This document shows positions 33,635 through 60,165 of a stretch of DNA of 64,000 nt, piece by piece. Origin of the DNA: Salinicola halimionae (GTDB taxonomy: Bacteria > Pseudomonadota > Gammaproteobacteria > Pseudomonadales > Halomonadaceae). The stretch's first letter is position 1, and each line of letters begins with the position of its first letter. The notes under the pieces are model-generated. The model was given only the letters and a program-made list of their open reading frames with translations, had not been told where the DNA came from and did not search any database. The DNA lies in the NCBI RefSeq assembly GCF_003206065.1, contig NZ_PZJQ01000002.1, positions 198,790 through 262,789 of the forward strand, given 5' to 3'. The position numbers and the translations under genes are program-made.

Positions 33635-33663
33635 TTGAAGCAACATGATCGCTTCTCTATAAT
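33635..33663 (+). promoter_or_regulatory. Sigma-70 promoter of the atp operon
   Basis: TTGAAG (33635-33640), 17-bp spacer, TATAAT (33658-33663), 90 bases before atpI. The -10 is the exact consensus. The rest of the 245-bp parB-atpI gap shows nothing else. Confidence 0.75.
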
Positions 33664-33753
33664 CCGCCGGGATTTGTCAGGCTGACGCCGCATGGTGACA
33701 TCGCACGTCGCGACAGCGAATTCATTCCAGGAATCAACGGCGAGACCGAAGCC

Positions 33754-34164: not shown

Positions 34165-35034
<870 letters not shown>

Positions 35035-35049
35035 GTAGCGTTCCGTTAA

Positions 35050-35355
<306 letters not shown>

Positions 35356-35425
35356 CGTCGCCGTTCGTGGCCCACGAGGCCTCCGGTGACCCTAACCCCA
35401 AACCTGTGACGCGAGAGGTGCTGGC

Positions 35426-35896: not shown

Positions 35897-35907
35897 GGAG
35901 GCGCACC

Positions 35908-36450: not shown

Positions 36451-36466
36451 GTTCGAGGGACATGGC

Positions 36467-38011: not shown

Positions 38012-38089
38012 GCGACGCGGCTCGCTCCATCGCGTGATGTGAGCGGGCCGGCTTGCCCGACTGAGCGGCATGAATCAGGGTGATCCGAG

Positions 38090-38980
38090 ATGGCAGCTGG
38101 AAAAGAGATCAAGTCCCAGATTGGGAGCATCAAGAACACGCAGAAAATCACCAGCGCCATGGAAATGGTCGCTGCGTCGAAAATGCGTCGGGCTCAGGAG
38201 CGTATGGCGGCCAGTCAGCCCTATGCCAAACTGATCCGCCGGGTGGTCGGCCACGTTGCCAAGGCCAACCCGGAATACCGTCACGACTATATGATCGAAC
38301 GCGACGTCAAGCGCGTCGGCTATATCGTCGTTTCCAGTGACCGCGGGCTCGCCGGCGGCTTGAACGTCAACATGTTCAAGGCGGTGGTCAAGCATGCGCG
38401 CGACTGGGACCAGAAAGGCGTCGGTGCCGATTTCGCGGCCATCGGCAGCAAGGCCGGCGGCTTTTTTCGCAAACGCGGCGGTAATCTGCTGGCGGCGAAG
38501 AAAGGCCTCGGCGATGCGCCGGAAGCCCAGGATCTGGTCGGTAGCGTCAAGGTGATGCTCGATGCCTTCGATGAAGGCAATCTGGATCGGCTCTATGTGG
38601 TGTACAACGAATTCGTCAACACCATGAGCCAGAAACCCGTCGTGCGTCAGCTACTGCCACTCGAGGCAGTGGGTAACGAAGTCGAAGGGGAAGAACAACC
38701 CGGTCCTGGCGATACGAAGAAGAGCTGGGACTACCTGTATGAGCCGGATGCCAAGACCCTGCTCGATCACCTGCTGGTTCGCTATGTCGAATCTCAGGTG
38801 TATCAGGCCGTGGTGGAGAACGCGGCTTGTGAGCAGGCCGCGCGCATGATCGCGATGAAGAACGCGACCGACAATGCCGGCGATCTGATTGACGATCTTC
38901 AACTGGTGTACAACAAGGCGCGTCAGGCGGCCATTACCCAGGAAATTTCGGAAATCGTCGGTGGTGCCGCGGCGGTATGA
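38090..38980 (+). CDS. atpG: F1Fo ATP synthase subunit gamma
   Basis: 296-residue central rotor shaft. N-terminal helix [20 protein letters not shown] and C-terminal coiled coil ([30 protein letters not shown], shown in part) are characteristic. It links c-ring rotation to catalysis. Confidence 0.97.
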
Positions 38981-40477
<1,497 letters not shown>

Positions 40478-40504
40478 GCCTGCAGACTCCCGGGAGATAT
40501 CGCT

Positions 40505-40930
40505 ATGGCCACATTTCAGTGTGACATCGTCAGTGCCGAGAAGGAGATCTTCTCGGGCAGCGTCGAGCAGCTCATTGCTGCCGGCGTGGCCGGCGATCTG
40601 GGTATCCTGCGTGGTCACGCGCCGCTGCTGACCGAGCTAAAGCCCGGTCCGGTGCGCGTGATTCAGGAAAACGGCGAAGAAGAGCTCTACTACGTCACCG
40701 GCGGCTTCCTCGAAGTACAGCCGGACGTGGTCTCGGTGCTGGCGGATACCGCCACTCGAGCCAGCGATCTCGATGAAGCGGAAGCCGAGCAGGCGCGTCA
40801 GCATGCTCTGGCCTCGCTCAACGAGAAGCAGACCGAGCTCGACTACGCGCGAGCCTCCGCCGAGCTGGCCGAAGCCACCGCTCAACTGCGTACGCTGCAA
40901 CAATTGCGTCGCAAGGGCGGTCGCGGCTAA
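40505..40930 (+). CDS. atpC: F1Fo ATP synthase subunit epsilon
   Basis: 141 residues: N-terminal beta sandwich ([27 protein letters not shown]) and a C-terminal helical hairpin that can inhibit hydrolysis. Last gene of the operon and followed by a strong terminator. Confidence 0.95.
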
Positions 40931-40953
40931 CGGCATCGCCGCGCAAGACCCGA

Positions 40954-40981
40954 AAGGCGACTCTCCTGAGTCGCCTTTTTT
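40954..40981 (+). terminator. Intrinsic terminator of the atp operon
   Basis: AAGGCGACTC (40954-40963) / GAGTCGCCTT (40968-40977), loop TCCT, followed by TTTT. Textbook structure 24 bases after atpC. Confidence 0.92.
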
Positions 40982-41076
40982 ATGGTCGCCAGGGCAGGGG
41001 CGTTCGAGGATCTGTCAGTGGTGTCCTCAAGCGCTAGAATGACGTCCAGTTTCCATTGATCAAAAGGATAAACGCC

Positions 41077-42459
41077 ATGACCCTCGACGTCGTGATACTG
41101 GCCGCCGGCCAAGGCACCCGCATGCGCTCGAAGACGCCGAAGGTGCTGCACAAGCTGGCGGGCCGCCCGCTGGTTCAACACGTCGTCGACACGGCGGCGG
41201 GGTTGGACAATGCCCGGTTGCACGTGGTGGTCGGCCACGGCGGCGAGACGGTGCGCGAGGCTTTGTCGGCCTCGACGTCGGACGATCGTGAACTCGCCTT
41301 CTGCGAGCAGACCGAACAGAAAGGCACCGGACACGCGGTGGCCCAGGCGCTCGACGGACTCGGTGACGGCAAGGTGCTGGTCCTCTACGGCGATGTGCCG
41401 CTGATCCAGGCCAGGACTCTCGACACGCTGCTCGAGGGCGTCGACGAGCAGCACATGGCGCTGTTGACGGTGACGCTCGACGACCCCACCGGCTACGGCA
41501 GGATCGTGCGCAACGGAAGCGATGCGGTCGTCGCCATCGTCGAACACAAGGATGCCGATGCCAAGCAGCGCACCATCCGCGAATGCAATACCGGGATCAT
41601 GGCGATGACCAGCGCACAGCTGCAGCGCTGGTTGCCCCAGCTTTCCGCCGAGAACGCCCAGGGCGAGTATTACCTGACCGATGTGATCGCCATGGCCGCT
41701 GCCGACGGCGTCGAGGTCAAGGCCGCGCAGCCGAGCTCGCCGGTCGAGGTCGAGGGGATCAACGATCGGCGCCAGCTGGCGTCACTGGAACGTGCCTTCC
41801 AGCATCGTCAGGCGGATCGATTGATGGCGGCCGGCGTCAGTTTCGCGGATCCGGAACGCTTCGATCTGCGTGGCGACGTCACCGTCGGCCGGGATATCCA
41901 GATCGACGTCAACGTGATCCTGGAAGGGCAGGTCACGCTGGAAGACGATGTCGTCATCGGTCCCAACTGCGTAATCAAGGACTCGATTCTGCGTCGAGGT
42001 GCCCTGGTGAAGGCCAACAGCCATCTTGAAGGTGTCGAGATGGGCGAGGGCAGCGACTGCGGACCGTTCGCACGCCTGCGTCCCGGTACTCGGCTCGGCG
42101 GCAGAGCGCATGTGGGTAACTTCGTCGAAACCAAGAACGCCACCCTGGGTGACGGCGTCAAGGCGGGCCACCTGAGCTATCTGGGTGATACCGAGATCGG
42201 CCGCGATACCAACATCGGCGCTGGCACCGTCACCTGCAACTACGATGGCATCAACAAGCATCGTACTCTGATTGGCGAGTGCGTCTTCGTCGGTTCCAAC
42301 AGCTCGCTGGTCGCCCCGGTCACCATTGGTAATGGCGCCACGATTGCCGCGGGTTCCACGATCACCCGTGCGGTGGCCGACGACGAGTTGGCGATCGGGC
42401 GCAGTCGTCAGGTCGTCAAGCAGGGCTGGCAGCGGCCGGTGAAGATGCCGAAGTCTTGA
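41077..42459 (+). CDS. glmU: Bifunctional GlcNAc-1-P uridyltransferase/glucosamine-1-P acetyltransferase
   Basis: 460 residues. The N-terminal nucleotidyltransferase has [18 protein letters not shown] at the start and GDVPLI near 105; the C-terminal half is a left-handed beta helix of hexapeptide repeats ending near residue 430 and contains [14 protein letters not shown]. Makes UDP-GlcNAc for peptidoglycan and LPS. The ATG at 41077 lies 8 bases after AAGGAT, favouring it over 41056. Confidence 0.97.
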
Positions 42460-42883
42460 TTCATTGTCTTTGGCGCTCATTCGAGTGAAAAGAGCTAACT
42501 ACTGACGAGGTCCTTACGACCCTTGTCGTCGTTATCGCGAGGGGAAAGCTCCTCGCGCTCCCCTTTTTCGCGCCACAGGCTCAATTAGCCCCGAGTCGAT
42601 CTTCGTCGACGCTTCGGGTCGGCGCGCAAGGACGTCCCTGTCCCGGCGCGCCTCTAGCGACCTGCTTCGCTAAAACATCCTGTCCCGCTTGCAGGCCGGA
42701 GCTGGCCATCCATGGCCAGCTCGTTCGGCGAACCAAACATCACTCAGATGTCTGGTTCGCCTTACCCATGTCGCTAGACCCGGCTTGCCGGTGGTCGCTC
42801 GGGTTGAGCCTGAGAGGCGCTATCGGGTGCTTCTTTCCGACAGATGTGGAAATCCTGCCGGTTTCCACTTCGTATCCTGGCAC
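42460..42883. other. Hairpin-rich gene-free region between glmU and the DUF1615 gene
   Basis: No convincing gene in 424 bases. Several strong inverted repeats are packed here: CGCGAGG/CCTCGCG (42536-42557) overlapping a terminator-like stem; GCTGGCC/GGCCAGC (42701-42720); and a long stem GGCGAACCA/TGGTTCGCC (42727-42735 and 42753-42761) with an inner ACATC/GATGT. GC-rich phrases such as GACGTCCCTGTCC and CATCCTGTCCCG resemble dispersed intergenic repeats, which I cannot confirm without the genome. Confidence 0.5.
42540..42568 (+). terminator. Probable terminator after glmU
   Basis: AGGGGA (42540-42545) / TCCCCT (42559-42564) followed by TTTT to 42568. An alternative stem CGCGAGG/CCTCGCG uses overlapping bases. 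Confidence 0.6.
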
Positions 42884-43984
42884 TTAACGTGCCATGCACT
42901 GCTGCCAGCGGTCGTCGACCCGCTTTGCAAACCACGCCGTGGTCAGGTTGCGGGTGATCTTGGGGCTCTCCAACTTGATGCCGGGTAACCGTGCGTAGGA
43001 GATGGGCTCGTTCTCCTGCTGCCGCGCCAGCGCATAGACTTTCTCGTAGAGGTCGGTCTGCTCGAAGTCGAGAGAATCCTCTTTTTCCAGTGCGTCGCGA
43101 ATATCACCGTCGTCCATGCCCAACCTGGCTTTCAGTGTGCGTACCGCCAATTCGGTCTGGCCTGCCTTGAGCGAGCCGGGAATAATCAGGTCACCATCCA
43201 GCGCCAGCGGAATACCGGAGAGTTGAGTGACGGCCGCCTGAAATGCGGCGTTACGGCTGGCGTACCAGCCGGCGTTGAAGTCGGCGAAGCGGTAAATGGG
43301 TTTGTCGTAATTGGCGGGATAGCCGAACAGGTGGGCAATGCCGAAATAGAGCCCGCCGCGCCGGGTGAATACCTCGTGACGGATCGAGCCATCGATCGGA
43401 TAGGGATAGTTCTCGGCGTGTTCTTGCGCGAAATCGACGCTGACCTGCATCGGGCCGCCGGTGTGCACCGGGTTAAGGCTGCCGAAGAGCTGGCGACCCA
43501 GCGGTGCCATGTCGATGAAATCCTCGAAGATCTCGCTCATCTCGCGCTCGGTGGTCACCGAATTCAAGCGCTGGTTGTAGGTCTTGCCGTTGGGTGATTC
43601 GAGATTCAGGCCGGCGTCGACCAGAAAACCGGGAACGTGTAGCGCGCTGGCGCGTCGGTCGATCTCCTGCCGGGCGATGGTCGAGAGATTGGGCACGCTG
43701 GGGTCGGCTCTGTAAGTCGACTCCTGCTCGATCACTGCCAGCACCGAGCAGAGATTGTCTCGAGTCGCGGGTAGATTCTGGGCCGAGAATGCAGCGGTGA
43801 TGTCCGTTGCCCAGCCATCACGGTCATCGGCGCTCGCCGGAATGAGTGTCACCAGCTCGCTTTTCACGCTCGCCGGACGCTGCTCGAAGCCGGGTTGCGG
43901 AGCCTGCGTGCTGCAGCCGGCCAGCAGGGTGACGACAAGCGCCGAGAGCCAGCGGTAGTTCGAATAAATCGTGGCTTTTTTCAT
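42884..43984 (-). CDS. DUF1615 lipoprotein
   Basis: 366 residues. The signal peptide ends at lipobox LLAGC (Cys24), so it is probably membrane-anchored in the envelope. The rest matches the DUF1615 type: VIEQESTYRADPSVPNL, NPVHTGGPMQVSV and FGYPANYDKPIYRFADFNAGWYASRN (shown in part). The ExS/GPMQVS pattern recalls lysozyme-like folds, but function is not established. Its ATG at 43984 overlaps the argE stop (ATGA), so it is translated with argE. Confidence 0.8.
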   Translation of the reverse strand: MKKATIYSNYRWLSALVVTLLAGCSTQAPQPGFEQRPASVKSELVTLIPASADDRDGWATDITAAFSAQNLPATRDNLCSVLAVIEQESTYRADPSVPNLSTIARQEIDRRASALHVPGFLVDAGLNLESPNGKTYNQRLNSVTTEREMSEIFEDFIDMAPLGRQLFGSLNPVHTGGPMQVSVDFAQEHAENYPYPIDGSIRHEVFTRRGGLYFGIAHLFGYPANYDKPIYRFADFNAGWYASRNAAFQAAVTQLSGIPLALDGDLIIPGSLKAGQTELAVRTLKARLGMDDGDIRDALEKEDSLDFEQTDLYEKVYALARQQENEPISYARLPGIKLESPKITRNLTTAWFAKRVDDRWQQCMAR

Positions 43985-45129
43985 GCGCTCAGATGCTCCA
44001 CCAGGCGCTGCATCATCGCATCGCAGCGTTCGAGCTGATCGAGGGCGATGAACTCGTCCGGCTTGTGACCCTGATCCATGCAGCCGGGGCCGCAAACCAC
44101 GGTGGGAATGCCGGCTTCATGAAACAGTCCGCCCTCGGTGCCGTAGGCAACGGTGCCGAAGTCATCGCGATCCGACAGGGTGGCGATCAATCGCGCCACG
44201 TCGCTCGTCGCCTCGGTCGTCAGCCCTGGATAAGCCTGTAGCGGCTCGAAGACGATATCGGTATCGGGTTCGACGGCGCGCATTTTGGGGATGAGTTCCT
44301 GGTCGGCGTAGTCGCGCATCTCGCGTTCGACATCATTGGCATCGAAGCCGGGCAGCGAGCGCACTTCCCAGTCGAAGCGACACTCAGACGGCACGATGTT
44401 GAGCGCTCGACCGCCCTCGATCACGCCGGTCTGGACGGTCGAAAAGGGCGGATAGAAGCGCTCGTCATGGCGGGCGGGATCGGCCAGACGCTCGCCGATC
44501 TCGTTGAGGCGAACGATCATCTTGGCGGCAGTTTCGATAGCGTTGACGCCCTCCGGTGCATAGGCGGAGTGGCAGGGCACACCATGCACGCGGCAGCGCA
44601 CGCCGAGCTTGCCCTTGTGACCCAGCACCGGCTTGAGCTCGGTCGGCTCGCCGATGATGCAGGCGAGCGGCTTGTGCGGTCTGCCTTCCAGCATCGAGAT
44701 GATCGAGCGCACGCCGAGACAGCCCACTTCCTCGTCATAGGAGAACGCCAGATGCACCGGCGTTTCGAGCTTCGCCGCCTTGTAGCTCGGCACCGCCGCC
44801 AGCACGCAGGCAATGTAGCCCTTCATGTCGGTGGTACCGCGGCCGTAAAGCTTGCCGTCGCGCTCGGTCATCTCGAACGTCGGTACGGTCCAAGGCTGGC
44901 CGTCGACCGGAACCACATCGGTGTGGCCGGAAAGCACCACGCCACCCCGATCAGTCGGGCCGATGGTTGCCCATAGATTGGCCTTGCTGCCCTCGTCGTT
45001 GTGAATCAGCTCGCTGTCGACGCCGTGCTGGGCGAGGTAATCGCGCACGAATTCGATCAGCGCGAGATTGGACTCGCGGCTGACTGTGGCGAAGCTGATC
45101 AGCTTGCCGAGGATCTCTTGGCTGGTCAT
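43981..45129 (-). CDS. argE: Acetylornithine deacetylase
   Basis: 382 residues of the M20 metallopeptidase family. Hydrolyses N-acetylornithine to ornithine in arginine synthesis. Metal-site motifs: SGHTDVVPVDGQPW (about 68), GRGTTDMKGY (about 98) and FSYDEEVGCLG (about 130); HKPDEF near the C-terminus. The ATG at 45129 behind AGAGA was chosen because the longer frame adds 23 residues unlike the family. Divergent from glmR. Confidence 0.92.
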   Translation of the reverse strand: MTSQEILGKLISFATVSRESNLALIEFVRDYLAQHGVDSELIHNDEGSKANLWATIGPTDRGGVVLSGHTDVVPVDGQPWTVPTFEMTERDGKLYGRGTTDMKGYIACVLAAVPSYKAAKLETPVHLAFSYDEEVGCLGVRSIISMLEGRPHKPLACIIGEPTELKPVLGHKGKLGVRCRVHGVPCHSAYAPEGVNAIETAAKMIVRLNEIGERLADPARHDERFYPPFSTVQTGVIEGGRALNIVPSECRFDWEVRSLPGFDANDVEREMRDYADQELIPKMRAVEPDTDIVFEPLQAYPGLTTEATSDVARLIATLSDRDDFGTVAYGTEGGLFHEAGIPTVVCGPGCMDQGHKPDEFIALDQLERCDAMMQRLVEHLSA

Positions 45130-45251
45130 GCGATGTCTCTTCGATTGTGGTTGTTGACTAGGCGAACCATGATGCCCAGCTCGTGTGGCAGTGACCACCG
45201 CGTCGTATCATTCCTTGGGTAAGCTTGACGAATTTTAGTGTTTGGATTTTG

Positions 45252-45323
45252 ATTCGCACCTGCTATCTTTCAAATCGAAAGCTAAAACGCGAAATTCGAA
45301 ACTTACTCTAATTTAATCGAAAC
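45252..45323 (+). promoter_or_regulatory. Direct-repeat operator array of the glmR-type gene
   Basis: AATCGAAAG (45273), ATTCGAAAC (45294) and AATCGAAAC (45315) recur at exactly 21-bp steps, and a degenerate ATTCGCACC lies one further step upstream (45252). The last copy ends 2 bases before the GlmR start codon, where no ribosome-binding site is visible. A DeoR-type oligomer on one face of the helix is the likely ligand. Confidence 0.65.
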
Positions 45324-45325
45324 CC

Positions 45326-46111
45326 ATGCCGAAACGCGACACCGCTCAGCGCCGTCACGCCATTCTTGCCTACGTCAACGAACATGGGGAAACCCCGGTC
45401 GAGACGCTGGCGAGTCGTTTCGCGATTTCCGAAGTGACGATCCGCAAGGATTTGAACACTCTGGAGCGCAGCGGCCTGTTGCTGCGTCGTTACGGCGGGG
45501 CGGCACCGTTGCCCCAGGAAATGCTCGCCGAGCCGGCACAGGCACTTTCCCCCTACAAGCAGGCCATCGCCCGGGCGGCGCGAGCGCGTATTCGCGAGCA
45601 CAACCGAATTATCGTGGATAGCGGCACCACCACGGCGGCGCTGATCGGCGAGCTGGGTGGCCTGCGCGGTCTGGTGGTGATGACCAATTCGCTCGCCGTG
45701 GCCGCGGCGCTGCGTGAACTGGAGTCGGAACCCGCGCTACTGATGACCGGCGGCACCTGGGACCCGCATTCGGAATCCTTCCAGGGCCAGGTCGCCGAGC
45801 AGGTATTGCGGGCCTACGATTTCGATCAGCTCTTCGTCGGTGCCGACGGCATCGACCTCGACCGCGGTACCACCACCTACAACGAGCTGTTCGGCCTGAC
45901 CCGGGTGATGGCCGAGGTCGCCCGCGAGGTGGTGGTGATGGTGGAAGCCGACAAGATCGGCCGCCGTATCCCCAATCTGGAACTTCCCTGGGCACGCATC
46001 GATACGCTCGTCACCGACTGGCGAATCGACGCCACGGCGGCAGAGGCCATCGAGCTCCAGGGCACGACGCTGGTGGTCGCGCCCGAGCCGGCCGGCCGAA
46101 CCGACGGATAA
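45326..46111 (+). CDS. glmR: DeoR-family regulator next to glmS (GlmR-like)
   Basis: 261 residues. The DeoR helix-turn-helix (ETPVETLASRFAISEVTIRKDL, shown in part, about 22-43) is followed by the DeoRC sugar-phosphate sensor domain (VDSGTTTAAL about 94; FVGADGIDL about 170; VEADKIGR). A DeoR-type gene sits in the same place before glmS in Pseudomonas and is called glmR, which is the basis for the symbol. It would sense an amino-sugar phosphate and control glmS. It ends 18 bases before glmS. Confidence 0.85.
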   Translation: MPKRDTAQRRHAILAYVNEHGETPVETLASRFAISEVTIRKDLNTLERSGLLLRRYGGAAPLPQEMLAEPAQALSPYKQAIARAARARIREHNRIIVDSGTTTAALIGELGGLRGLVVMTNSLAVAAALRELESEPALLMTGGTWDPHSESFQGQVAEQVLRAYDFDQLFVGADGIDLDRGTTTYNELFGLTRVMAEVAREVVVMVEADKIGRRIPNLELPWARIDTLVTDWRIDATAAEAIELQGTTLVVAPEPAGRTDG

Positions 46112-46129
46112 CTTTCAAGGACATCGATC

Positions 46130-47983
<1,854 letters not shown>

Positions 47984-48025
47984 GGGGAAAGCTTCAAATT
48001 GCCGCCACGGGAAACTGAAAATCAG

Positions 48026-51837: not shown

Positions 51838-52533
51838 TCAACTGCCGGCGTAGGAACGCATTGTCTGCTGGTTCCAAGTCTCGAAGTGGTCGAACATGGC
51901 TTGACGCGCCAGATCCGGATCTTTTGCCTTGATCGCGGCGACGATGGCGATATGGGTTTCGTTGGTCTTCTTCAGTGATTGGGTGGACTGGCGGGCAAGC
52001 ACCCGGCGATGGTGAAGCACTTTCTTCAGAACCGACGACAGGCCTTGAAATATGATCAAAATGGCAGGATTGCCGGCCATGATCGCCAATTGTTCGTGAA
52101 ACTCGTAGTCGGCTTGGAGGCCGTCGTTTATATCCGCTGTGTTGACGATGCGTTCGCAGAGCCGCTCCAGTTTCTCCAGTTCCTGGGGTGTGTGATGGGT
52201 CGCGGCCGCTTGAATGATTTCACGCTCGAACATTTCCCGCGCCGATTCCATGTGATCGACGGAGATGTAGTTCAGCTTCAAGGCCAGTTCAAAGTAGAGC
52301 TGGATAAAGACGGGCTCGGGCATTTTAAGAAACGTCCCCGAACCTTGTCGGCGTTCGATGAACCCCAGGCTCTGAAGCACCGACAACGCGTTCCTGACCG
52401 ATGAGCGATGCATCGAGAATCGTTCGCACAGCGTCCTTTCCGGTGGCAGTTTCAGGCGTCCATCGCGGGACAGTTCCGACACCGATACGAAGTCGTGCAA
52501 TTTGGCCAGAAGGCCGGAGTCAATCTCGCTCAT
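51838..52533 (-). CDS. FCD-domain GntR-family regulator of the TRAP/transketolase operon
   Basis: 231 residues. N-terminal winged helix (LPPERTLCERFSMHRSSVRNAL, shown in part) and a C-terminal helical FCD domain with acidic/His metal-site residues (DYEFHEQLA; THIAIVAAI). FadR-type FCD regulators typically bind TGGTnnACCA-like sites and respond to small acids. It is the last gene of the leftward operon, 53 bases after the SDR gene. Two such sites lie in front of the first operon gene (59904 and 60152), which suggests feedback control. Confidence 0.88.
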   Translation of the reverse strand: MSEIDSGLLAKLHDFVSVSELSRDGRLKLPPERTLCERFSMHRSSVRNALSVLQSLGFIERRQGSGTFLKMPEPVFIQLYFELALKLNYISVDHMESAREMFEREIIQAAATHHTPQELEKLERLCERIVNTADINDGLQADYEFHEQLAIMAGNPAILIIFQGLSSVLKKVLHHRRVLARQSTQSLKKTNETHIAIVAAIKAKDPDLARQAMFDHFETWNQQTMRSYAGS

Positions 52534-52586
52534 AGGCGTTCCAGTCGCTGCCGTCGGTGGAAAGAGTTCGGCGGCAGCTTAGCATG

Positions 52587-53339
52587 TCAGTGAATGTGCA
52601 TACCGCCGTTGACGTCGATCGTGGCACCGGTGATGTAGCTCGACAGCTCGCTGGCCAGGAACAGAAAGGCATTGGCGACGTCGTCGGGCAGTCCGAGCCG
52701 CTTGAGCGGGATCCCCTCTAGAATCGGGGCCTTCATCTCTTCGGTCAGCTTGCCGGCGGTGATATCGGTATCGATCAGTCCGGGCGTCACCGAATTGACC
52801 CGAATGCCGAACGGCCCCAGCTCGCGGGCCATTGCCTTGCCCAGCCCCAGCATGCCAGCCTTGGCGGCGCTGTAGTGGGGCCCTCCGAAAATGCCGCCGC
52901 CGCGTTGGGCGGAAACCGAGGAGGTGCTGGCGATCGAGCCGCCGCCCGCCGCTTTCATGTGCGGCACCACGGCCTGGGACATGTACAGCATACCGCGCAG
53001 GTTGACGTCGAGAATGCGGTCGTAACTCTCGGAGTCGATCTCCTCGAACTTCACTGGCTGGGTAATGCCGGCATTGTTGATGAGCACATCGATCTTGCCG
53101 AATTGCTCGAGCGCGCGTTCGACCACATCGAGACATTCGTCGCGGCGGGTGACGTTGGCGACTACGACGAGACAGCGGGCTGGATCGAACTCCTGCCTCA
53201 CCGCTTCACAGGCCGATTCGTCGATATCGGAAATGACGATGTTCGCCCCGTGTTCGTGAAACAGCCGGGCAGTCTTCAAGCCGATCCCGCGGGCGCCGGC
53301 CGCGCCGGTGATGAGGCAGACCTTGTTGTCGAGAAGCAT
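52587..53339 (-). CDS. SDR-family dehydrogenase of the TRAP/transketolase operon
   Basis: 250 residues: TGAAGARGIG nucleotide loop, VISDID (Asp after the second strand favours NAD), NNAG, STSSVSAQ and YSAAK. Resembles sugar or polyol dehydrogenases of the FabG-like group. GGAG supports the ATG at 53339 over an upstream in-frame one. Seventeen bases after the TIM-barrel gene. Probably oxidises an imported polyol or sugar acid or reduces its keto form. Confidence 0.87.
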   Translation of the reverse strand: MLLDNKVCLITGAAGARGIGLKTARLFHEHGANIVISDIDESACEAVRQEFDPARCLVVVANVTRRDECLDVVERALEQFGKIDVLINNAGITQPVKFEEIDSESYDRILDVNLRGMLYMSQAVVPHMKAAGGGSIASTSSVSAQRGGGIFGGPHYSAAKAGMLGLGKAMARELGPFGIRVNSVTPGLIDTDITAGKLTEEMKAPILEGIPLKRLGLPDDVANAFLFLASELSSYITGATIDVNGGMHIH

Positions 53340-53356
53340 GCGTGTATCTCCAGGCA

Positions 53357-54190
53357 TCATTGAAGGTTATCGAGCCATTCGAGGGAACGGCCGAGTTTTT
53401 CCTCGATCAGATCGAGAGGCAGTGGACTCCTGTCCCGCCAGGGTTGTGCCTGGCGGTCCCGATGGAGCCGGAAGGGAAGTTCCAGCGAGAACGGCCGTTC
53501 GGCGGCCACGAGGGTGCGAATCACCCGGGCCTCGTCGATATCGCTGTCGCCGAGTTCGCTGAAGTCATAGCCGGATGCCACGCGCCGGCAGGGCTTGATG
53601 TGAAAATGGTCCGCCAGAGGCAGGGCTTGTTCTACGTCCGTCTCGGGATGGCGATCCGGCTGGTGGGAGAGCAGGTTGCCGCAGTCGTAGTTGATGCCGA
53701 AGGTATCGTCATCGAGCATTGCCATCAGCTTGAGGATATCCCCGGCGTGGTCGAGCATGTTCGGTTCGGCGTTGCCCGGGTTCTCGAGCAGGATTCGAAC
53801 GCCATGGTCCCGCGCGATGCGGCTCATCCGTTCGGCGTGGGCGAGAAAGCGCGCGCGGTTGCCGAGCGTTGCGGCGTTGGTGATGACGAACTTGGCGCCG
53901 AGTGCTGCGGCGAATCGGCAGCGCGCTTCGAGACGCTCCGGGGCATTGTCGAGGCCGAGATCGATATGGCCGGAGAAATAACGGCAATGCTGATCGAGAC
54001 CGCGCATCTCACTACATAGATCGTTGGCGAGCGCGAGAGTCAGGTCGGCGTCGGTGAAAGTCTCCACGTAACCGTCAATAAAGGCGAATTCGACTTGCCG
54101 CACGCCGCGACGGGCCAGGGACGGCAGAATACGGTCGAAGTCGTAACCGTCGTAGGCCGCCGTGCTGACGGAAAACGAAAGGGAGTTCAT
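53357..54190 (-). CDS. TIM-barrel sugar isomerase/epimerase-like protein
   Basis: 277 residues of the xylose-isomerase-like TIM-barrel family (AP endonuclease family 2). Metal-site type residues appear in FAFIDGYVE, RILLENPGN (Glu, about 150), NYDCGNLL and ADHFHIKPC (His). Relatives include hydroxypyruvate isomerase, 2-oxo-tetronate isomerase and tagatose epimerases; I cannot choose among them. Start overlaps the stop of the dehydrogenase gene upstream (ATGA). Confidence 0.8.
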   Translation of the reverse strand: MNSLSFSVSTAAYDGYDFDRILPSLARRGVRQVEFAFIDGYVETFTDADLTLALANDLCSEMRGLDQHCRYFSGHIDLGLDNAPERLEARCRFAAALGAKFVITNAATLGNRARFLAHAERMSRIARDHGVRILLENPGNAEPNMLDHAGDILKLMAMLDDDTFGINYDCGNLLSHQPDRHPETDVEQALPLADHFHIKPCRRVASGYDFSELGDSDIDEARVIRTLVAAERPFSLELPFRLHRDRQAQPWRDRSPLPLDLIEEKLGRSLEWLDNLQ

Positions 54191-55095
54191 GCTTGGCCGC
54201 CCCCCTCGGGATCGCAGCCATTGAGTCGGCGGTAGGTGCGAATCAACTGGCTGTCGTCCAGGCGGCCTTCGCCACCCTCGGCCGTGGCGACGAAGAGCTG
54301 ATGCGCGCTGTGGGCGAGGGGGGTGTAGGCCCGAGACGAACTGGCGGCGTCGCAGACGATGCCCAGATCCTTGCAGAAGATGTCGATGGCACTGGTGACG
54401 TCTCCCGGCGGCTCGATCATTCGCGGGCCGCGGTCGCGGAGCATCCAGCTCGAGGCCGCCGAACCCTGGACTAGCCGCAACGCGATCTGCCGGTCGATGC
54501 CGCTTTTCTCGGCCAGTGCCAGCGCTTCCGCCGCCGCCGCGATATGCACCCCGCAAAGCAGCTGGTTGACCGCTTTCATCGCGGCGCCCTGCCCGGGGCG
54601 ATCGCCGACCTCGAAGATCGCCTGGCCGAGGATGTCGAACAGCGGACGGCAGCGCTCGAGTGACGGCGCATCGCCAGCGGCCATGATGCTGAGCGTGCCG
54701 GCTTGCGCTCCCACGACGCCACCCGAAACCGGGGCATCCACGTAGTGAAGATCCGGCCGCACTGCCGCGACGTCGGCGGCCAGTGCTTCGGCATCGGCCG
54801 GCGCGACGGTGGACATCTGTACGATGCAAGCGTCCGTCGGCAATCGTGATGCCAGGCCGCCGACGACGAGTGCATCCGAGAACAGCAGCGAGCGAATCTG
54901 CTCGGCGTTGACGACCATGATCACCAGCGCCTCGATGTTTTCGATACCGTCGTTTCGGGTAGACACTTGGCGGTGAAAGGCTTCAGCGCGCTCGGTCAGT
55001 GCATCGAGACCGAGCACCTCGAGCCCGGTTCGGGCGAGATTCTCGGCCATGGGCCAGCCCATGGCGCCCAATCCTGCAACAGCGACTCTCTTCAT
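54187..55095 (-). CDS. Beta-hydroxyacid dehydrogenase (3-hydroxyisobutyrate/threonate dehydrogenase-like)
   Basis: 302 residues: Rossmann GLGAMGWPMAENLA at the start, substrate-binding DAPVSGGVVGAQAGTLS (about 120) and the catalytic-lysine segment GAAMKAVNQLLCG (about 168). Family members include tartronate-semialdehyde reductase and L-threonate dehydrogenase. It sits between DctM and the TIM-barrel gene, with 9 bases to DctM. Substrate probably a short sugar acid. Confidence 0.85.
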   Translation of the reverse strand: MKRVAVAGLGAMGWPMAENLARTGLEVLGLDALTERAEAFHRQVSTRNDGIENIEALVIMVVNAEQIRSLLFSDALVVGGLASRLPTDACIVQMSTVAPADAEALAADVAAVRPDLHYVDAPVSGGVVGAQAGTLSIMAAGDAPSLERCRPLFDILGQAIFEVGDRPGQGAAMKAVNQLLCGVHIAAAAEALALAEKSGIDRQIALRLVQGSAASSWMLRDRGPRMIEPPGDVTSAIDIFCKDLGIVCDAASSSRAYTPLAHSAHQLFVATAEGGEGRLDDSQLIRTYRRLNGCDPEGGGQA

Positions 55096-55104
55096 CTTGG
55101 TTCC

Positions 55105-56364
55105 TCAGTAAAGGATCAGTGCGGGCACGTACGAGACGAGAAGCAGCACGGCGATGGCGACGAGATAGAACGGAACGAGTTCACGCACGACGGCGCCAAT
55201 GCGCTCCCGAGCGATGGCCGATGCGACGAATAGCGTGGTACCGATGGGCGGCGTGAAGAGTCCGATGCTCAGATTCACGCACATGATGATCCCGAGCTGG
55301 ACCAGGTCCAGGCCGATGGCGTTGGCGATCGAGACGAGCGTCGGCCCCAGCAGCAGGATTGCGGCCGGCAGATCGAGGAACATGCCGATGAACAGCAGCA
55401 ACAGGTTGATCGCCAGAATTACCAGGATCGGATTGCCGAGAGTTTCTACGGCCCACTGCGCGATGGCCTGAGGGACACCACCACTGGTAAGGATATAGGC
55501 GATGATATTGGCGGCGGCGATGATCAGCATGACCATGCCCGTGGTCACGACCGTTCCCGATAACGCAGACACGACGCGGGAGAGCGTCAGATCGCGGTAA
55601 ATCAGCGCGCTGACGAGCAGCGCGTAGGCCACGGAGATGATGCTGACTTCGGTGGGGGTGGCGATGCCTGCGCGCAATAGCACGAGAATGATTACCGGCA
55701 TCATTAGCGCGGGCAGCGCCGTAGTCAACGTGCTTTTCACCTCCCGTGCCGTGTACTTCAGCGTGAGTCTAGGGAAGCCGCGTCGCTTTCCGGTCACATA
55801 GCAGGCGGTCATCATTCCGATCGCCAGCATCAGCGCCGGCAGCACCCCGGCGAGGAATAGCGACGCGATGGAAACATTGGACACCGTGGCAAACAGGATC
55901 AGCGGGATCGATGGTGGCATCAAGCCGGCAATGACCGATGAGGAAGCGGTTACCGCGGCGCCGAAGGCACCGGGGTAGCCCTCTCTCTTCTGCCAGGGAA
56001 TCAGCATCGAACCCAGCGCCGATGCCTCGGCGACGGCTGAACCCGAAACGCCGCCAAAGATGGTGGAGCCCACCACGGTCACCTGACCTAGCCCGCCGTG
56101 ATACTTGCCGACCAGCATCGATGCCAGCGCTACCAGTCTCTGCCCGAGCTTGCCGGACATCATCAGACTGCCGGAAAGCACGAAGAAAGGGATGGCCAGC
56201 AGTGGGAAGCTCTGAGTCGGCTGGAAGATTTTCATCACCACCATGCTTGAGGGCATGGAGCCGAAGACCGAGAGCGCCGTCCAGCCGCTGAGGACGAGTG
56301 AGTAGCCCACCGGCATTGCCATCAGCATGAGGAGGATGAAGGAGAACAGCATATTGATTGTCAT
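55105..56364 (-). CDS. dctM: TRAP transporter large permease (DctM family)
   Basis: 419 residues, about twelve hydrophobic segments, with family phrases GGVSGSAVAEASALGSMLIP (about 90) and LFTPPIGTTLFV (about 365). Forms the transport channel, driven by ion gradient. The ATG at 56364 behind GGAGGAA was chosen; it overlaps the DctQ stop. Confidence 0.92.
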   Translation of the reverse strand: MTINMLFSFILLMLMAMPVGYSLVLSGWTALSVFGSMPSSMVVMKIFQPTQSFPLLAIPFFVLSGSLMMSGKLGQRLVALASMLVGKYHGGLGQVTVVGSTIFGGVSGSAVAEASALGSMLIPWQKREGYPGAFGAAVTASSSVIAGLMPPSIPLILFATVSNVSIASLFLAGVLPALMLAIGMMTACYVTGKRRGFPRLTLKYTAREVKSTLTTALPALMMPVIILVLLRAGIATPTEVSIISVAYALLVSALIYRDLTLSRVVSALSGTVVTTGMVMLIIAAANIIAYILTSGGVPQAIAQWAVETLGNPILVILAINLLLLFIGMFLDLPAAILLLGPTLVSIANAIGLDLVQLGIIMCVNLSIGLFTPPIGTTLFVASAIARERIGAVVRELVPFYLVAIAVLLLVSYVPALILY

Positions 56365-56924
56365 AGGGCTTCCTCCCCGTGGGTCGCAAGCGATTCGTCT
56401 ACCGATACCCGGCGATCGAGTGCGATGAGAACATTGAGCAGGGAAACGAGCGCCAGACCAGCGAAGCCGACAACGACCGACCAGTAGGCCCATGACATGG
56501 CAATACCGGTAATGGGCAGGAGCTGATTGCCCGCGATACTGATAACTTCCAGCCCGTGCCAGGCGATGAGGGCGAAAGCGATGGCCGCCAGCAGGTTCGT
56601 GGCGAGACTGACGACCCTACGCAGTGGACGCGGCAGTCTCTCGACCACGGCTTCGATCCCGATATGTTCGTTCTTCGCAGCGGTCGCGACGATGGCGCAC
56701 ATGGTGAGCCAGGGAAACAGGAGGTTGGGAACTTCCGACGTCCAGTTGAGATTCATCTCCCACACATAGCGCACGAATACGGCCGTCAATAGCGTGCCGA
56801 ACATGGTGAGGAGGGAGACGATGCCGAACCACTTGAACAGGTGATGAATCGCGGTTTTCAGGCGCAGCGGGGGCGAACCGGGATGCCCCGGTTCGCCATG
56901 CCGACCTGCATTGACTTTAGACAT
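56361..56924 (-). CDS. dctQ: TRAP transporter small permease (DctQ family)
   Basis: 187 residues with four membrane helices and the DctQ phrase WEMNLNWTSEVPNLLFPWL (about 55-73). Pairs with DctM. GGGAG precedes the ATG at 56924. Translationally coupled to dctM. Confidence 0.88.
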   Translation of the reverse strand: MSKVNAGRHGEPGHPGSPPLRLKTAIHHLFKWFGIVSLLTMFGTLLTAVFVRYVWEMNLNWTSEVPNLLFPWLTMCAIVATAAKNEHIGIEAVVERLPRPLRRVVSLATNLLAAIAFALIAWHGLEVISIAGNQLLPITGIAMSWAYWSVVVGFAGLALVSLLNVLIALDRRVSVDESLATHGEEAL

Positions 56925-56939
56925 GGCGAACGCTCCCGT

Positions 56940-57944
56940 TTACTGTGATGCTTTCGCCTTCTTCGCGGCGTTTACGACCATATCCACCATCTTTGGATAC
57001 TTTCCGCGCCAGGTGTCGTAGACGCTGCGAGTCGCTTCGATGAACGGTGCCTGATCCACTTCGTTGAACTTCACCCCCGCTTTTTCCATCTTCACGCGCA
57101 GGTCGTTGTCCGCTTCCAGCGACGCCTGGCGCTCGAACTTGCCCGCTTCGATGGCGGCATCCTGAATGACTTTCTGGTCCTCGGGCGTAAGACTGTCCCA
57201 AACGACCTTGCTCATCAGCAGTGGCATCGACTCGTACATGTGGCCAGTAAGCGAAATATATTTCTGCACTTCATAGAGCTTCGATGAATAGATGTTCATT
57301 AGCGGGTTCTCCTGACCATCCACCACGCCCTGCTGGAGCGCGATATAGAGTTCGGAGAAGTTCATCGGTGTCGGCGTTGCACCGAGCGCATCGAAGATAT
57401 CGACGGCTATTTCGGATGGCGGCGTACGGATCTTGAGACCCTGGAGGTCGGCGGGTTTTTCGATCGGTCGGACGTTGTTGCTGACGTGACGGATGCCGTT
57501 ATCCCACAGTGCTAGCAGCACCAATCCCTGTTCTTGCGCTAGTCGTTTGAGCTCGTTGCCAACCTCGCCATCCATGACTTCCCAGGCGGTGGGCAATGAA
57601 TCGAAGAGAAATGGCAGGCCAAGCAGAGAGAACTGCGGAACGATGCTAGACACTGGCCCCTGACTGTTGGCGCTGAACCCGAGGCTTCCCATGCGCATCA
57701 GGGTCAGTGCTTCCATATCATCGCCATATTGGGCATTGCCGCCCACGTCGACGTGGATTTCTCCGTTCGTTCCCTCTTCGACGAGTTTGGCGAAGCGTTC
57801 GGAGGCTATCCATTTTGGGTTGCCCTCGGCGGCATTGTGAGCCAGTTGCAGAGTTTGAGCTGCCATTGCTGGTGTAGCGGCCGCAAGGGCAGCAGCCAAG
57901 GCCGTGGTTTTCAGAATCGCTTTAATCATTGTCGTTGCGCTCAT
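56940..57944 (-). CDS. dctP: TRAP transporter substrate-binding protein (DctP family)
   Basis: 334 residues. Signal peptide ends at AMAAQT (about 29), so periplasmic. Contains the conserved carboxylate-binding arginine region LKIRTPPSEI (about 172) and the ALQQGVVDGQENP motif (about 207-219). Substrates of this family are usually carboxylates or sugar acids. ATG at 57944 chosen; 57929 is possible. Forty-six bases after the transketolase C subunit gene. Confidence 0.92.
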   Translation of the reverse strand: MSATTMIKAILKTTALAAALAAATPAMAAQTLQLAHNAAEGNPKWIASERFAKLVEEGTNGEIHVDVGGNAQYGDDMEALTLMRMGSLGFSANSQGPVSSIVPQFSLLGLPFLFDSLPTAWEVMDGEVGNELKRLAQEQGLVLLALWDNGIRHVSNNVRPIEKPADLQGLKIRTPPSEIAVDIFDALGATPTPMNFSELYIALQQGVVDGQENPLMNIYSSKLYEVQKYISLTGHMYESMPLLMSKVVWDSLTPEDQKVIQDAAIEAGKFERQASLEADNDLRVKMEKAGVKFNEVDQAPFIEATRSVYDTWRGKYPKMVDMVVNAAKKAKASQ

Positions 57945-57990
57945 GGTTGCTGACGGGGTTTGGTGACGTCCTTGCTATGGCGCTTCCGGC

Positions 57991-59001
57991 TCAGCTGGCG
58001 TGCGTGAGCGAGATTCGGGACGCCAGGGTCTTCACCATTGCCTGGGTGGAGATGCCATAGCGGTCATGCAGGGTGGGCAGTGCGCCGGCGTCGAGAAACT
58101 CATCGGGCAGCCCGATCTGGTGGAATTCCGGGTGCACGCCAGAATTCATTAATAGTGAAGCTACGCTTTCGCCCAGCCCGCCGATGACGGAGTGGTTCTC
58201 CGCCACGTAGACGGGGCGCTGCGGATCACGTTTGATCTCATCGAGAATCGTTCGGGCATCCAGCGGCTTGATCGTGGGGGAATGGAGGACACCTACACGG
58301 ATGCCGCGTTCAGCAAGGGCATCGGCGGCTTCGATGGCGCGCATGGTCATCAGGCCGGACGAAATGATCAGCGCATCCTCGCCATCCATCAGCCTACGGG
58401 CTCGACCGATCTCGAAACGGTAGTCCGGGAAACGATCGAGCACGCGGGGGACCATGCCGCGTAGCAGACGCAGGTAAACCGGCCCGTCGTGAGCGGCCAT
58501 GGCGTGGGTGGCCTGTTCGATATCTACCGCATCACAGGGATCGACGATGGTCAGGTTCGGCATGCCGCGAAAGATGGCCATGTCCTCGGTCGCCTGATGA
58601 CTCGGCCCATAACCGGTGGTGAGGCCCGGCAGCGCACAGACGATCTTGACGTTGAGCTTCTCTTCGGCGATCGCCAAGCAGATGAAGTCGTACGCCCGCC
58701 GTGAGGCGAAGACACCGTAGGTCGTCACAAAGGGAATGAAGCCTTCGCGTGCCATGCCGGCGCCGGCACTCATCAGCAATTGCTCGGCCATTCCCATCTG
58801 GTAGTAACGCTCAGGGTAGGCCTGGGCGAAGACTTGCAGATCGGTGTATTTGCCGAGATCCGCGGTCATGCCCACGATACGGTTGTTGGCCGCAGCCGCC
58901 TCGACCAGGGCGTGACCGAACGGCGCCGAGGTGGTTGCCTGACCCTCCGCCGCCAGCGAGGCGATCATCGCCGATGTCTTGAGTCGCGTTTTGGTACTCA
59001 T
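57991..59001 (-). CDS. Transketolase-like protein, C-terminal subunit
   Basis: 336 residues covering the pyrimidine-binding and C-terminal domains of transketolase. YYQMGMAEQ holds the Glu that activates ThDP, and YGPSHQATEDMA the substrate-site His. With the adjacent N subunit it forms a split transketolase, as known for DXP-like and apulose-phosphate or sulfosugar transketolases. GGGAG lies before the ATG at 59001; 4-base overlap with the N subunit gene. Confidence 0.9.
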   Translation of the reverse strand: MSTKTRLKTSAMIASLAAEGQATTSAPFGHALVEAAAANNRIVGMTADLGKYTDLQVFAQAYPERYYQMGMAEQLLMSAGAGMAREGFIPFVTTYGVFASRRAYDFICLAIAEEKLNVKIVCALPGLTTGYGPSHQATEDMAIFRGMPNLTIVDPCDAVDIEQATHAMAAHDGPVYLRLLRGMVPRVLDRFPDYRFEIGRARRLMDGEDALIISSGLMTMRAIEAADALAERGIRVGVLHSPTIKPLDARTILDEIKRDPQRPVYVAENHSVIGGLGESVASLLMNSGVHPEFHQIGLPDEFLDAGALPTLHDRYGISTQAMVKTLASRISLTHAS

Positions 59002-59888
59002 GGATGATCGCTCCCTTCGGCGCTTGGTTGATTGGCGTAGGTATCGTCGAGTTGCTCTAGCGCGACGCGCCACTCGTCTTCGTCGACACGAATGAAGTGG
59101 GTCTTGTCGCGGTTTTCGAGCAGCGGGACGCCGCAGCCCATCAAGGTGTCGCAGATGATGACGCGGGGCTTGCCATCGGCAGGGCCTTGCGCGGTATCGA
59201 AGGCATCGACAAGCGCGGAGAGGTCGTTGCCGTCCACCCGCAGCGCCGTCCAGCCGAATGCGGTCCACTTGTCGGCGATGGGTTCGTAGCCGAGCACGCT
59301 CGAAGACTTGTCGTCGGCCTGCTGATCGTTGACGTCGACGATGGCGATGATGTTGTCGAGCTTCCAGTGTGCAGCCGAGGCAGCGGCTTCCCAGGTCGAG
59401 CCCTCGTTGAGCTCACCATCCGAGAGAAGGTTGAAGATGCGCGAACGGCTCCGTTTGCGCTTCAGACCTAGTGCCATTCCGACGCCGATCCCTAGCCCGT
59501 GCCCCAGCGACCCGCCAGTGATCTCCATGCCGGGCGTGTAGGCCGCCATGCCGGACATCGGCAGCATGCTGTCGTCGCTGCCGTAGTTTTCGACTTCGCT
59601 CTCGCTGATGACACCTGCCTCGATCAACGCCGCGTAGAGGGCGATGGCGTAATGCCCGATCGACAACAGGAAGCGATCGCGTTCTTCCCATTCGGGGTCG
59701 TCGGCGCGGAGATTCATGGCACGGAAGTAGGAGACCGCGAGCACGTCGGCGATACCCAGCGCCTGACCGACATAACCCTGGCCCTGCACTTCACCCATGC
59801 GTAGCGCATGGCGACGAATTCGATAGGCGCGTTGCCGAAGAGCGGAGATATCGGCGGGGGCGATCGCAGTAGTAGCGGCCAGATGCAT
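58998..59888 (-). CDS. Transketolase-like protein, N-terminal subunit
   Basis: 296 residues covering the ThDP-diphosphate domain. GSLGHGLGIGVGMALG and the metal/ThDP motif SDGELNEG with VDVND about 30 residues later are present; the usual Gly before DG is Ser, as in some split enzymes. First gene of the leftward operon. The ATG at 59888 fits the family start and lies 15 bases from the GntR-type palindrome; no good ribosome-binding site. Confidence 0.9.
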   Translation of the reverse strand: MHLAATTAIAPADISALRQRAYRIRRHALRMGEVQGQGYVGQALGIADVLAVSYFRAMNLRADDPEWEERDRFLLSIGHYAIALYAALIEAGVISESEVENYGSDDSMLPMSGMAAYTPGMEITGGSLGHGLGIGVGMALGLKRKRSRSRIFNLLSDGELNEGSTWEAAASAAHWKLDNIIAIVDVNDQQADDKSSSVLGYEPIADKWTAFGWTALRVDGNDLSALVDAFDTAQGPADGKPRVIICDTLMGCGVPLLENRDKTHFIRVDEDEWRVALEQLDDTYANQPSAEGSDHP

Positions 59889-59903
59889 AGATGCTGTTCC
59901 GTA

Positions 59904-59919
59904 AATTGGTTGACCAATT
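59904..59919. promoter_or_regulatory. GntR/FCD-type operator next to the operon start
   Basis: AATTGGTTGACCAATT, perfect 7-base arms around TG. The TTGGTnnACCAA core matches FadR-subfamily sites. It lies 15 bases before the first start codon, a repressor position. Confidence 0.65.
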
Positions 59920-60151
59920 AACAGTAGTGAGAGCTTTAAGAGAAAAGAAGACAGACTTTGGTCGCGGGATGAAAATCGCGTTGCGTCGATCCTCACACTT
60001 GATTGGCGGAAGATCGAGACACGGACAGAAGAAGACAACTGAAGAGCTTAAGTTAATCAATAGATTATGCGGGACGACTGGATTTCGACGCATAAGGGAG
60101 GGGCTTGTCAGAAAAACGCCACGAATTGTTGAGCGCCTTCGGACCGAGACT

Positions 60152-60165
60152 AATGGTTAACCATT
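60152..60165. promoter_or_regulatory. Second TGGTnnACCA palindrome upstream
   Basis: AATGGTTAACCATT, a perfect 14-bp palindrome sharing the TGGTnnACCA core with the site at 59904, about 250 bases away. It could serve looping by the same regulator. Confidence 0.5.

Follow-up and report, generated by a model that had tools for sequence, protein, structure and literature searches.

A dehydrogenase and a split transketolase form the core of a kinase-free operon

The window analyzed here, a 64-kb stretch of DNA (G000:C4:198790-262789) from a 3.99-Mb genome whose closest fetched relatives belong to Salinicola, carries a nine-gene operon on its minus strand (51838-59888). It probably specifies a catabolic pathway for a sugar acid that controls its own expression and has no kinase among its genes. 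It encodes a transketolase-like enzyme split over two genes (TKN and TKC), a tripartite ATP-independent periplasmic (TRAP) transporter (DctP, DctQ, and DctM), a beta-hydroxyacid dehydrogenase (HIBADH), a TIM barrel protein (TIM), a short-chain dehydrogenase/reductase (SDR), and a GntR/FCD regulator. According to our model, to which we assign a probability of about 0.42, a sugar acid would be imported, oxidized, turned into a free erythrulose-type ketol, and cleaved by the split transketolase. The model builds on four observations, namely the gene content of the operon, its co-conservation, a replacement pattern among relatives, and a rebuilt transketolase pocket.

The SDR and the split transketolase are a near-obligate pair. 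With thresholds of E <= 1e-80 for the TKC subfamily and E <= 1e-72 for the SDR, TKC was detected in 24 of 398 genomes of the phylum and the SDR in 23, both occurring together in 21 (Fisher 1.1e-29). Within the family, 15 of 151 genomes carry TKC and 21 the SDR, and all 15 TKC-bearing genomes are also SDR positive. Exceptions in the survey include three transketolase-positive genomes without the SDR at the threshold used (G587, G534, and G590); in G556, counted among the 21, the two lie on different contigs. In addition, the nine genes occur in the same order in all nine fetched loci from Salinicola, Halomonas, Vreelandella, and another gammaproteobacterium, and the arrangement is therefore more than chance. 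The gene set that an earlier, sequence-only reading of the window had singled out is thus co-conserved, both as a whole in close relatives and, across the phylum, in its dehydrogenase-transketolase pair.

Neighborhoods were annotated for 43 split-transketolase loci, a non-random set of 33 of the 38 places from the phylum and family searches plus 10 plasmid loci chosen from matches. Within 8 kb, the SDR is present in 38 of these loci, this type of TRAP transporter in 25, a fused TRAP transporter in 3, a close relative of a Pantoea major facilitator superfamily (MFS) carrier in 4, HIBADH in 17, and TIM in 12. These counts therefore mark the SDR and the split transketolase as the core, with exchangeable transporter, HIBADH, and TIM. 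The best solved relative of the SDR is a protein labeled 'FabG' (7krk; E = 3e-89), which we take to come from Acinetobacter baumannii. Being very close to the operon SDR, this protein may in fact work as a dehydrogenase alongside a split transketolase.

The substrate pocket of the split transketolase is remodeled

Two alignments of 47 rows were made, each with 44 subfamily rows (window included), Escherichia coli TktA, a full-length transketolase of Skermanella, and either AptA or AptB, the two subunits of the split apulose-4-phosphate transketolase. Residues are numbered as in TktA. The thiamine diphosphate (ThDP)-binding residues D155, G156, and N185 and the catalytic glutamate E411 are kept in all 44 subfamily rows, as are His66, His261, His473, and Arg520. 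In the same 44 rows, His26 is replaced by Tyr and His100 by Ser, both positions being His in TktA, the Skermanella enzyme, and AptA. Of the phosphate and donor ligands Arg358, His461, Asp469, and Arg520, just the last survives: throughout the subfamily, position 358 has lost its Arg, position 461 carries Leu, and position 469 carries Tyr together with a one-residue deletion. Judging from these alignments, the pocket is remodeled, with several of the usual substrate-contact residues exchanged.

Classical transketolases use His26 and His100 on hydroxymethyl ketones. As AptA keeps both histidines, their exchange is more telling than that of the phosphate ligands. Sequence comparison with solved structures places both subunits nearest to the Carboxydothermus hydrogenoformans split transketolase (6yaj and 6yak), with 6yaj as the best match for TKC, and the best NCBIfam model for TKN, PRK05899.2-5, reaches 216 bits against a cut-off of 488.

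Family genomes with the SDR but without the split transketolase carry an erythrulose-kinase-type cassette

Six family genomes are SDR positive and split-transketolase negative, and all six were fetched. In each of them, the block SDR-TIM-DctM-DctQ-DctP adjoins genes for RpiB, a dihydroxyacetone (DHA) kinase family protein, and a triosephosphate isomerase (TPI)-like protein, accompanied in five of the six by a SorC-type regulator. A seventh locus (L099, genome G698) has the same cassette arrangement with the split transketolase within it and thus holds both sinks. We take LerK to belong to the DHA-kinase family and DerI to the RpiB family; by its gene families, the cassette appears to have the make-up of LerK-LerI-DerI. 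These enzymes are described as converting L-erythrulose to erythrose 4-phosphate (PMC10733421). Because the SDR-TIM-TRAP block adjoins such a cassette in genomes without the split transketolase, its product may be unphosphorylated erythrulose. The simplest reading is that TRAP, SDR, and TIM deliver free erythrulose or a compound near it, for which the split transketolase is an alternative, kinase-free sink.

The genome studied here carries a cassette of this type as well, about 650 kb from the operon; behind it lie genes for an alcohol dehydrogenase of the zinc type and an ATP-binding cassette (ABC) transporter of the ribose type. Its TPI-like protein and RpiB are 35.5% and 49.3% identical, respectively, to those of an ery-type locus of Rhizobium leguminosarum, presumed to be the ery locus of that species, whose RpiB passes the D-erythrulose-4-phosphate isomerase cut-off. 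Relatives of TIM adjoin DhaK/DhaL genes in Shinella, Rhizobium tropici, and Sinorhizobium fredii, and one lies within the cassette of a Klebsiella plasmid. The sequence-only reading had missed both that the transketolase is not an ordinary one and that a kinase cassette is located elsewhere in the genome and, in relatives, at the place of the transketolase.

Fused DHA-family kinases were searched for at E <= 1e-100, a search that separate DhaK/DhaL subunits would escape. They occur in all six family SDR genomes without the split transketolase and in 2 of the 22 split-transketolase genomes outside the family. The transketolase may thus be the sole sink only outside the family. This distribution bears on a conventional explanation, in which the operon would belong to an ordinary apulose-4-phosphate or sulfo-sugar transketolase pathway with its kinase elsewhere in the genome. 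Apulose 4-phosphate is a known substrate of split transketolases of this size (PMC13001218), and the fused kinase about 650 kb away could be counted in favor of this idea. However, TKN and TKC are just 36.5% and 30.4% identical to AptA and AptB, AptA keeps His26 and His100, no sulfonate gene is among the nine, and the fused kinase was not detected in 20 of the 22 genomes outside the family, a count in which separate DhaK/DhaL subunits are missed. We therefore consider this explanation highly improbable.

Uptake and oxidation genes point to a sugar acid

In an alignment of 29 DctP rows, R152, R173, and N213 are each conserved at 97% or more, a pattern that we assume to be usual for carboxylate-binding TRAP proteins. 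Some relatives (Pantoea) have an MFS carrier instead of the TRAP transporter; its best-scoring model, with a score below the cut-off, is a D-galactonate transporter. The sequence-only reading had left the imported substrate as either a sugar acid or a polyol; the acid fits the data, whereas the carboxylate-type DctP pattern and the MFS replacement make a polyol less likely. Two relatives have a lactonase-like gene in their vicinity (L076, PF08450; L079, weak).

The same MFS carrier would also suit a hexonate route. Here, the SDR product would be 5-keto-gluconate or one of its isomers, from which the transketolase would release tartrate semialdehyde; grapevine has been proposed to form tartrate in this way. 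A transketolase has been proposed to cleave 5-keto-gluconate, and a mutant E. coli transketolase is reported to use this compound (PMC11066805). Nevertheless, family scans revealed no semialdehyde dehydrogenase among the nine genes, and the link to erythrulose-type kinase cassettes is left unexplained, which makes this route quite improbable.

For HIBADH, the best NCBIfam model is L-threonate dehydrogenase (NF043037), whose cut-off of 350 bits is not reached (279.6 bits); as a tartronate semialdehyde reductase, the protein scores 181.6 bits. It is 36.9% identical to E. coli YgbJ (LtnD) and 34.5% to GlxR. Outside the family, DctP is 51 to 65% identical to that of the window in loci with HIBADH versus 47 to 54% in loci without it. 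This comparison of 8 with 7 loci, of which one overlaps, gave a Mann-Whitney p of 0.0006 without correction for relatedness. Outside the family, HIBADH thus tends to follow the DctP clade, which fits an upstream role and suggests that HIBADH may serve the imported ligand. A function as reductase of the transketolase product is less likely on the same grounds, with the qualification that the relatives are not independent and that L067 and L095 break the rule. On pSymB of Sinorhizobium meliloti Ak57 (L026:10489-11473), the HIBADH stretch has no annotated coding sequence and was matched in two pieces, so the gene looks interrupted there.

TIM, whose sole family match is to PF01261, has no NCBIfam match and, searched as a single sequence, no PDB match at E <= 0.001. 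A profile search returned an AP endonuclease family 2 protein (2.6e-5), MJ1311 (1.3e-4), and D-allulose 3-epimerase (0.23). Its AlphaFold model (10 sequences; pLDDT 86.3) was compared by Foldseek, giving 240 matches with E <= 0.001; among the 50 matches listed, 45 are ketose 3-epimerase entries (TMq 0.72 to 0.76; 13 to 19% identity), although a few enzymes contribute many of these entries as separate chains and two were judged by title alone. In hhalign comparisons with 16 TIM rows, the probabilities are 92.6% for the S. meliloti-type TIM, 61.8% for the presumed EryC, 41.5% for the Pantoea TIM, 22.6% for Hyi, and 6.0% for OtnI. The residues E136, D169, H197, and E237, which we take to be the E-D-H-E metal site of ketose 3-epimerases, are invariant in the 16 rows. 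The profile similarity to the presumed EryC, an enzyme that PMC10733421 names erythrulose-1-phosphate 3-epimerase, is weak; together with the ketose 3-epimerase-like fold, it speaks for the erythrulose model. TIM was also considered as a hydroxypyruvate isomerase and rejected, having neither BLASTP nor hhalign support for this function, which does not appear among the 50 Foldseek matches listed.

These results allow two further routes to be weighed. In a tetronate route, HIBADH and the SDR would oxidize L-threonate or a stereoisomer, and isomerization by TIM would then give free 3-oxo-tetronate. The split transketolase, in place of OtnK and OtnC, would cleave this compound directly to glyoxylate and a two-carbon unit. 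The best HIBADH model agrees with this scheme; 2-hydroxyacid dehydrogenase genes, possible glyoxylate reducers, lie within 8 kb in 3 of the 43 loci (the two scanned match generic models below cut-off), and neighboring DHA kinases could take dihydroxyacetone formed by decarboxylation. On the other hand, TIM has no usable similarity to OtnI, HIBADH is dispensable, a C3 product would not require the RpiB and TPI-like genes that accompany SDR-TIM-TRAP in relatives, and two DUF1537-type kinases are present elsewhere in the genome. Overall, we regard the tetronate route as unlikely.

Alternatively, a pentonate could be used without decarboxylation: the SDR would make 4-oxo-pentonate, the transketolase would yield tartronate semialdehyde, HIBADH would reduce it to glycerate, and TIM would interconvert it with hydroxypyruvate. 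The HIBADH family includes tartronate semialdehyde reductases, and 2-hydroxyacid dehydrogenase genes adjoin the module in L022 and L098. Yet HIBADH scores higher as a threonate dehydrogenase, its tendency to follow the transporter clade fits an upstream role, and TIM looks more like a ketose 3-epimerase than like hydroxypyruvate isomerase. This scheme is accordingly rather improbable.

Proposed pathway

From these observations, we infer the following substrate, acceptor, and reaction steps for the erythrulose model. The sugar acid imported by the TRAP transporter would most likely be a five-carbon aldonate. The SDR would oxidize it, the LtnD-like HIBADH presumably being a second dehydrogenase for a related acid. 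The resulting keto acid would lose CO2, with TIM setting the stereochemistry or aiding decarboxylation, to give L-erythrulose in its free form or a closely similar ketol without a phosphate group; the gene replacement points to erythrulose as the best-supported intermediate. The split ThDP enzyme would then move a two-carbon ketol unit from the free ketose to an acceptor, leaving glycolaldehyde. Relatives without the split enzyme would convert the same intermediate into erythrose 4-phosphate by way of the erythrulose kinase cassette. The genome also encodes a candidate GlcD-like glycolate oxidase (549.9 bits, just below its cut-off of 567.9), which could act on glycolate derived from glycolaldehyde.

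The sequence-only reading had already placed oxidation and isomerization before the transketolase step. This order fits the data, with the amendment that HIBADH and TIM are optional. Taken as a whole, that interpretation is partly supported.

Individual steps have precedents. An SDR oxidizes the C5 aldonate 2-deoxyribonate, at a position that was not determined and for which a 3-keto product was proposed (PMC6365646). Phosphoketolase, a ThDP enzyme, is reported to act on and cleave free erythrulose (PMC10547157). According to a 2025 paper (PMC12780249), the transporters and kinases that bacteria need to use tetroses, including L-erythrulose, have not been reported; in a passage of its table, Paraburkholderia accounts for two of three L-erythrulose isolates. 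Relatives of the operon SDR with 66 to 67% identity are found in Paraburkholderia. A literature search covering titles and abstract openings found no description of the operon; in the papers searched, L-threonate, TRAP transporter, and transketolase never occurred together in one paper, nor did the term 'split transketolase' appear.

A number of observations weigh against the model. The cassette RpiB proteins score 173 to 188 bits, short of the erythrulose-specific cut-off of 240, their best model being generic ribose-5-phosphate isomerase B, whose cut-off they pass, so that the cassette RpiB does not settle the sugar; the erythrulose RpiB model also gives sub-threshold matches in 7 of the 14 genomes used as controls. 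The fused kinase is found in 12 of the 15 family genomes with the split transketolase, and the two sinks are therefore not mutually exclusive in the family. These two findings, the RpiB scores and the coexistence of both sinks in most genomes of the family, slightly lowered our confidence in the erythrulose model. The TRAP and TIM proteins of the six SDR-only family genomes are more distant (DctP 46 to 48%, TIM 47 to 51% identical), and five of the six belong to one genus. The cassette of the genome studied here lies near an ABC sugar importer of its own, and a DHA-kinase gene is present within 8 kb in just 4 of the 43 split-transketolase loci. Among individual genomes, G638, one of two SDR-positive, transketolase-negative genomes in the phylum sample, has neither cassette nor TIM, and G319 has a TIM relative without transketolase, cassette, or close SDR. 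In the family loci L067 and L095, DctP is 74 to 79% identical and yet HIBADH is missing. Lastly, the pocket change cuts both ways: with His26 and His100 gone from the entire subfamily, the donor may not be erythrulose. AptB, despite phosphorylated substrates, departs at several canonical phosphate-ligand positions in the same alignment, so the loss of these ligands is no proof of free substrates and has been withdrawn as such.

We consider it marginally more credible than the full pathway, though still short of even odds, that the split enzyme, with a rebuilt pocket for donor and acceptor, belongs to a functional class of its own among proteins of transketolase fold, dedicated to free erythrulose or another sugar-acid-derived ketol, and that the SDR and this enzyme together make up a portable module of two steps, free of a kinase and placed on different transporters. 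If so, a widespread transketolase subfamily would be paired with a dehydrogenase instead of a kinase, while classical transketolases are textbook enzymes of phosphorylated sugars. Sugar-acid carbon would then enter central metabolism without ATP expenditure at entry, and the enzyme would be a natural biocatalyst for free ketoses.

Operon organization and regulatory features

Gene families were assigned by Pfam and NCBIfam scans (Table 1). From TKN on, the Pfam order is Transketolase_N; Transket_pyr and Transketolase_C; DctP; DctQ; DctM; NAD_binding_2 and NAD_binding_11; AP_endonuc_2; adh_short_C2; and GntR and FCD. TRAP membership is assigned by Pfam above cut-off for DctP, DctQ, and DctM and by TIGRFAM for DctP and DctM. 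The scans thus bear out the nine leftward genes and their order in the sequence-only reading, along with its remark that kinase, aldolase, dehydratase, and sulfonate genes are absent from the nine. Likewise, the genes are as tightly packed as it had described: TKN/TKC, DctQ/DctM, HIBADH/TIM, and TIM/SDR overlap by 4 bases, and the remaining gaps measure 46, 15, 9, and 53 bases. Its boundary at 60165, however, is some 280 bases further upstream than the start codon of the first gene (59888).

A probable GntR operator precedes TKN. This exact palindrome is unique in the window with up to one mismatch allowed (0.04 matches expected). In a comparison of relatives, in which some loci are apparently the same contigs, the motif was found at or just before the transketolase gene in L001 to L005, L009, L067, L094, L095, and L097 and in a variant form in L099; it was not found in L006 to L008, L092, L093, and L096. 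In the Halomonas/Vreelandella loci L005 to L008, HIBADH and TIM are 60 to 66% identical to those of the window, lower than the other genes except DctQ. The GntR regulator gene of the Salinicola tamaricis locus (L004:11658-12351) is split across two reading frames. A tRNA scan of the window found none, and positions 29207 to 48000 look origin proximal to us from their translations (presumably mnmG, rsmG, parAB, the atp operon, glmU, a DeoR-type regulator, and glmS).

Table 1. Features of the operon, its putative operator, and related loci
Feature	Coordinates	Strand	Length (aa)	Family match or remark
TKN, N-terminal ThDP-binding subunit, split transketolase-like	58998..59888	-	296	PF00456
TKC, pyrimidine-binding and C-terminal subunit, split transketolase-like	57991..59001	-	336	PF02779 + PF02780
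DctP, TRAP solute-binding protein	56940..57944	-	334	PF03480, TIGR00787
DctQ, TRAP small permease	56361..56924	-	187	PF04290
DctM, TRAP large permease	55105..56364	-	419	PF06808, TIGR00786 above cut-off
HIBADH, beta-hydroxyacid dehydrogenase, L-threonate-dehydrogenase-like	54187..55095	-	302	NF043037 below cut-off
TIM, xylose-isomerase-like TIM barrel, ketose 3-epimerase-like fold	53357..54190	-	277	PF01261
SDR dehydrogenase, near-obligate split-transketolase partner	52587..53360	-	257	PF13561
GntR/FCD regulator	51838..52533	-	231	PF00392 + PF07729
Probable GntR operator, palindrome ATTGGTTGACCAAT (ATTGGT-NN-ACCAAT, exact)	59905..59918	.		16 bases upstream of TKN
Own-genome cassette: SorC regulator, transketolase, TPI-like, DHA-kinase family, RpiB	G000:C4 ~900.8-907.6 kb (L104:6329-13072)
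Lone TIM relative	L135:8921-9780 (G319)
Lone SDR relative	L134:9161 (G638)

Comparison with known systems

As far as its gene families tell, the operon fits no characterized pathway that we found, in agreement with the sequence-only reading, which could name none. That reading had suggested comparing the transketolase with the apulose-4-phosphate enzyme; the identities given above are not close. AptA/AptB, from the D-apiose pathway of E. coli SE15, is likewise a two-gene split enzyme encoded beside sugar-uptake genes. Its cluster has the kinase AplK and an ABC transporter, whereas the operon has a TRAP transporter and no kinase; on these identities and the missing kinase, an apulose-4-phosphate transketolase was rejected. 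A sulfo-sugar pathway is made less likely by the lack of a sulfonate gene among the nine. The Carboxydothermus split transketolase, unlike that of the window, keeps the canonical histidines and phosphate ligands in alignments.

The L-threonate pathway LtnD-OtnI-OtnK-OtnC, summarized in PMC12540250, shares an LtnD-like dehydrogenase and a TIM barrel enzyme with the operon. The threonate pathway proper was nevertheless rejected: the nine genes hold no homologues of OtnI, OtnK, or OtnC, TIM is not detectably related to OtnI (YgbM) by BLASTP or hhalign, and HIBADH remains under the LtnD cut-off. The two DUF1537-type (SBD_N) kinases of the genome, both over the Pfam cut-off, are encoded at G000:C4:112020-112694 and G000:C7:186555-187199.

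A plasmid locus of Pantoea sp. At-9b (L142:4983-13449), presumably a D-apionate/L-erythrulose locus with ApnO and OiaC, has a DHA-family kinase, a TPI-like protein, and RpiB beside a dehydrogenase and a TIM barrel. This dehydrogenase has PGDH_C and KARI-like domains, unlike the SDR or HIBADH of the operon, and the TIM barrel is 33% identical to that of the S. meliloti split-transketolase locus and not similar to that of the window by BLASTP (E = 0.3). We take PGDH_C to mark ApnO. The D-apionate pathway proper was rejected, since HIBADH has NAD_binding_11 and no PGDH_C and the ApnO-type domain is absent from the operon.

The tetritol/L-erythrulose route LerK-LerI-DerI probably shares the intermediate erythrulose with the operon, the SDR-TIM-TRAP block being joined to such a cassette in all six family genomes without the split transketolase. 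In contrast to that route, the nine genes of the operon include no DHA-family kinase, TPI-like protein, or RpiB and have the split transketolase in their place.

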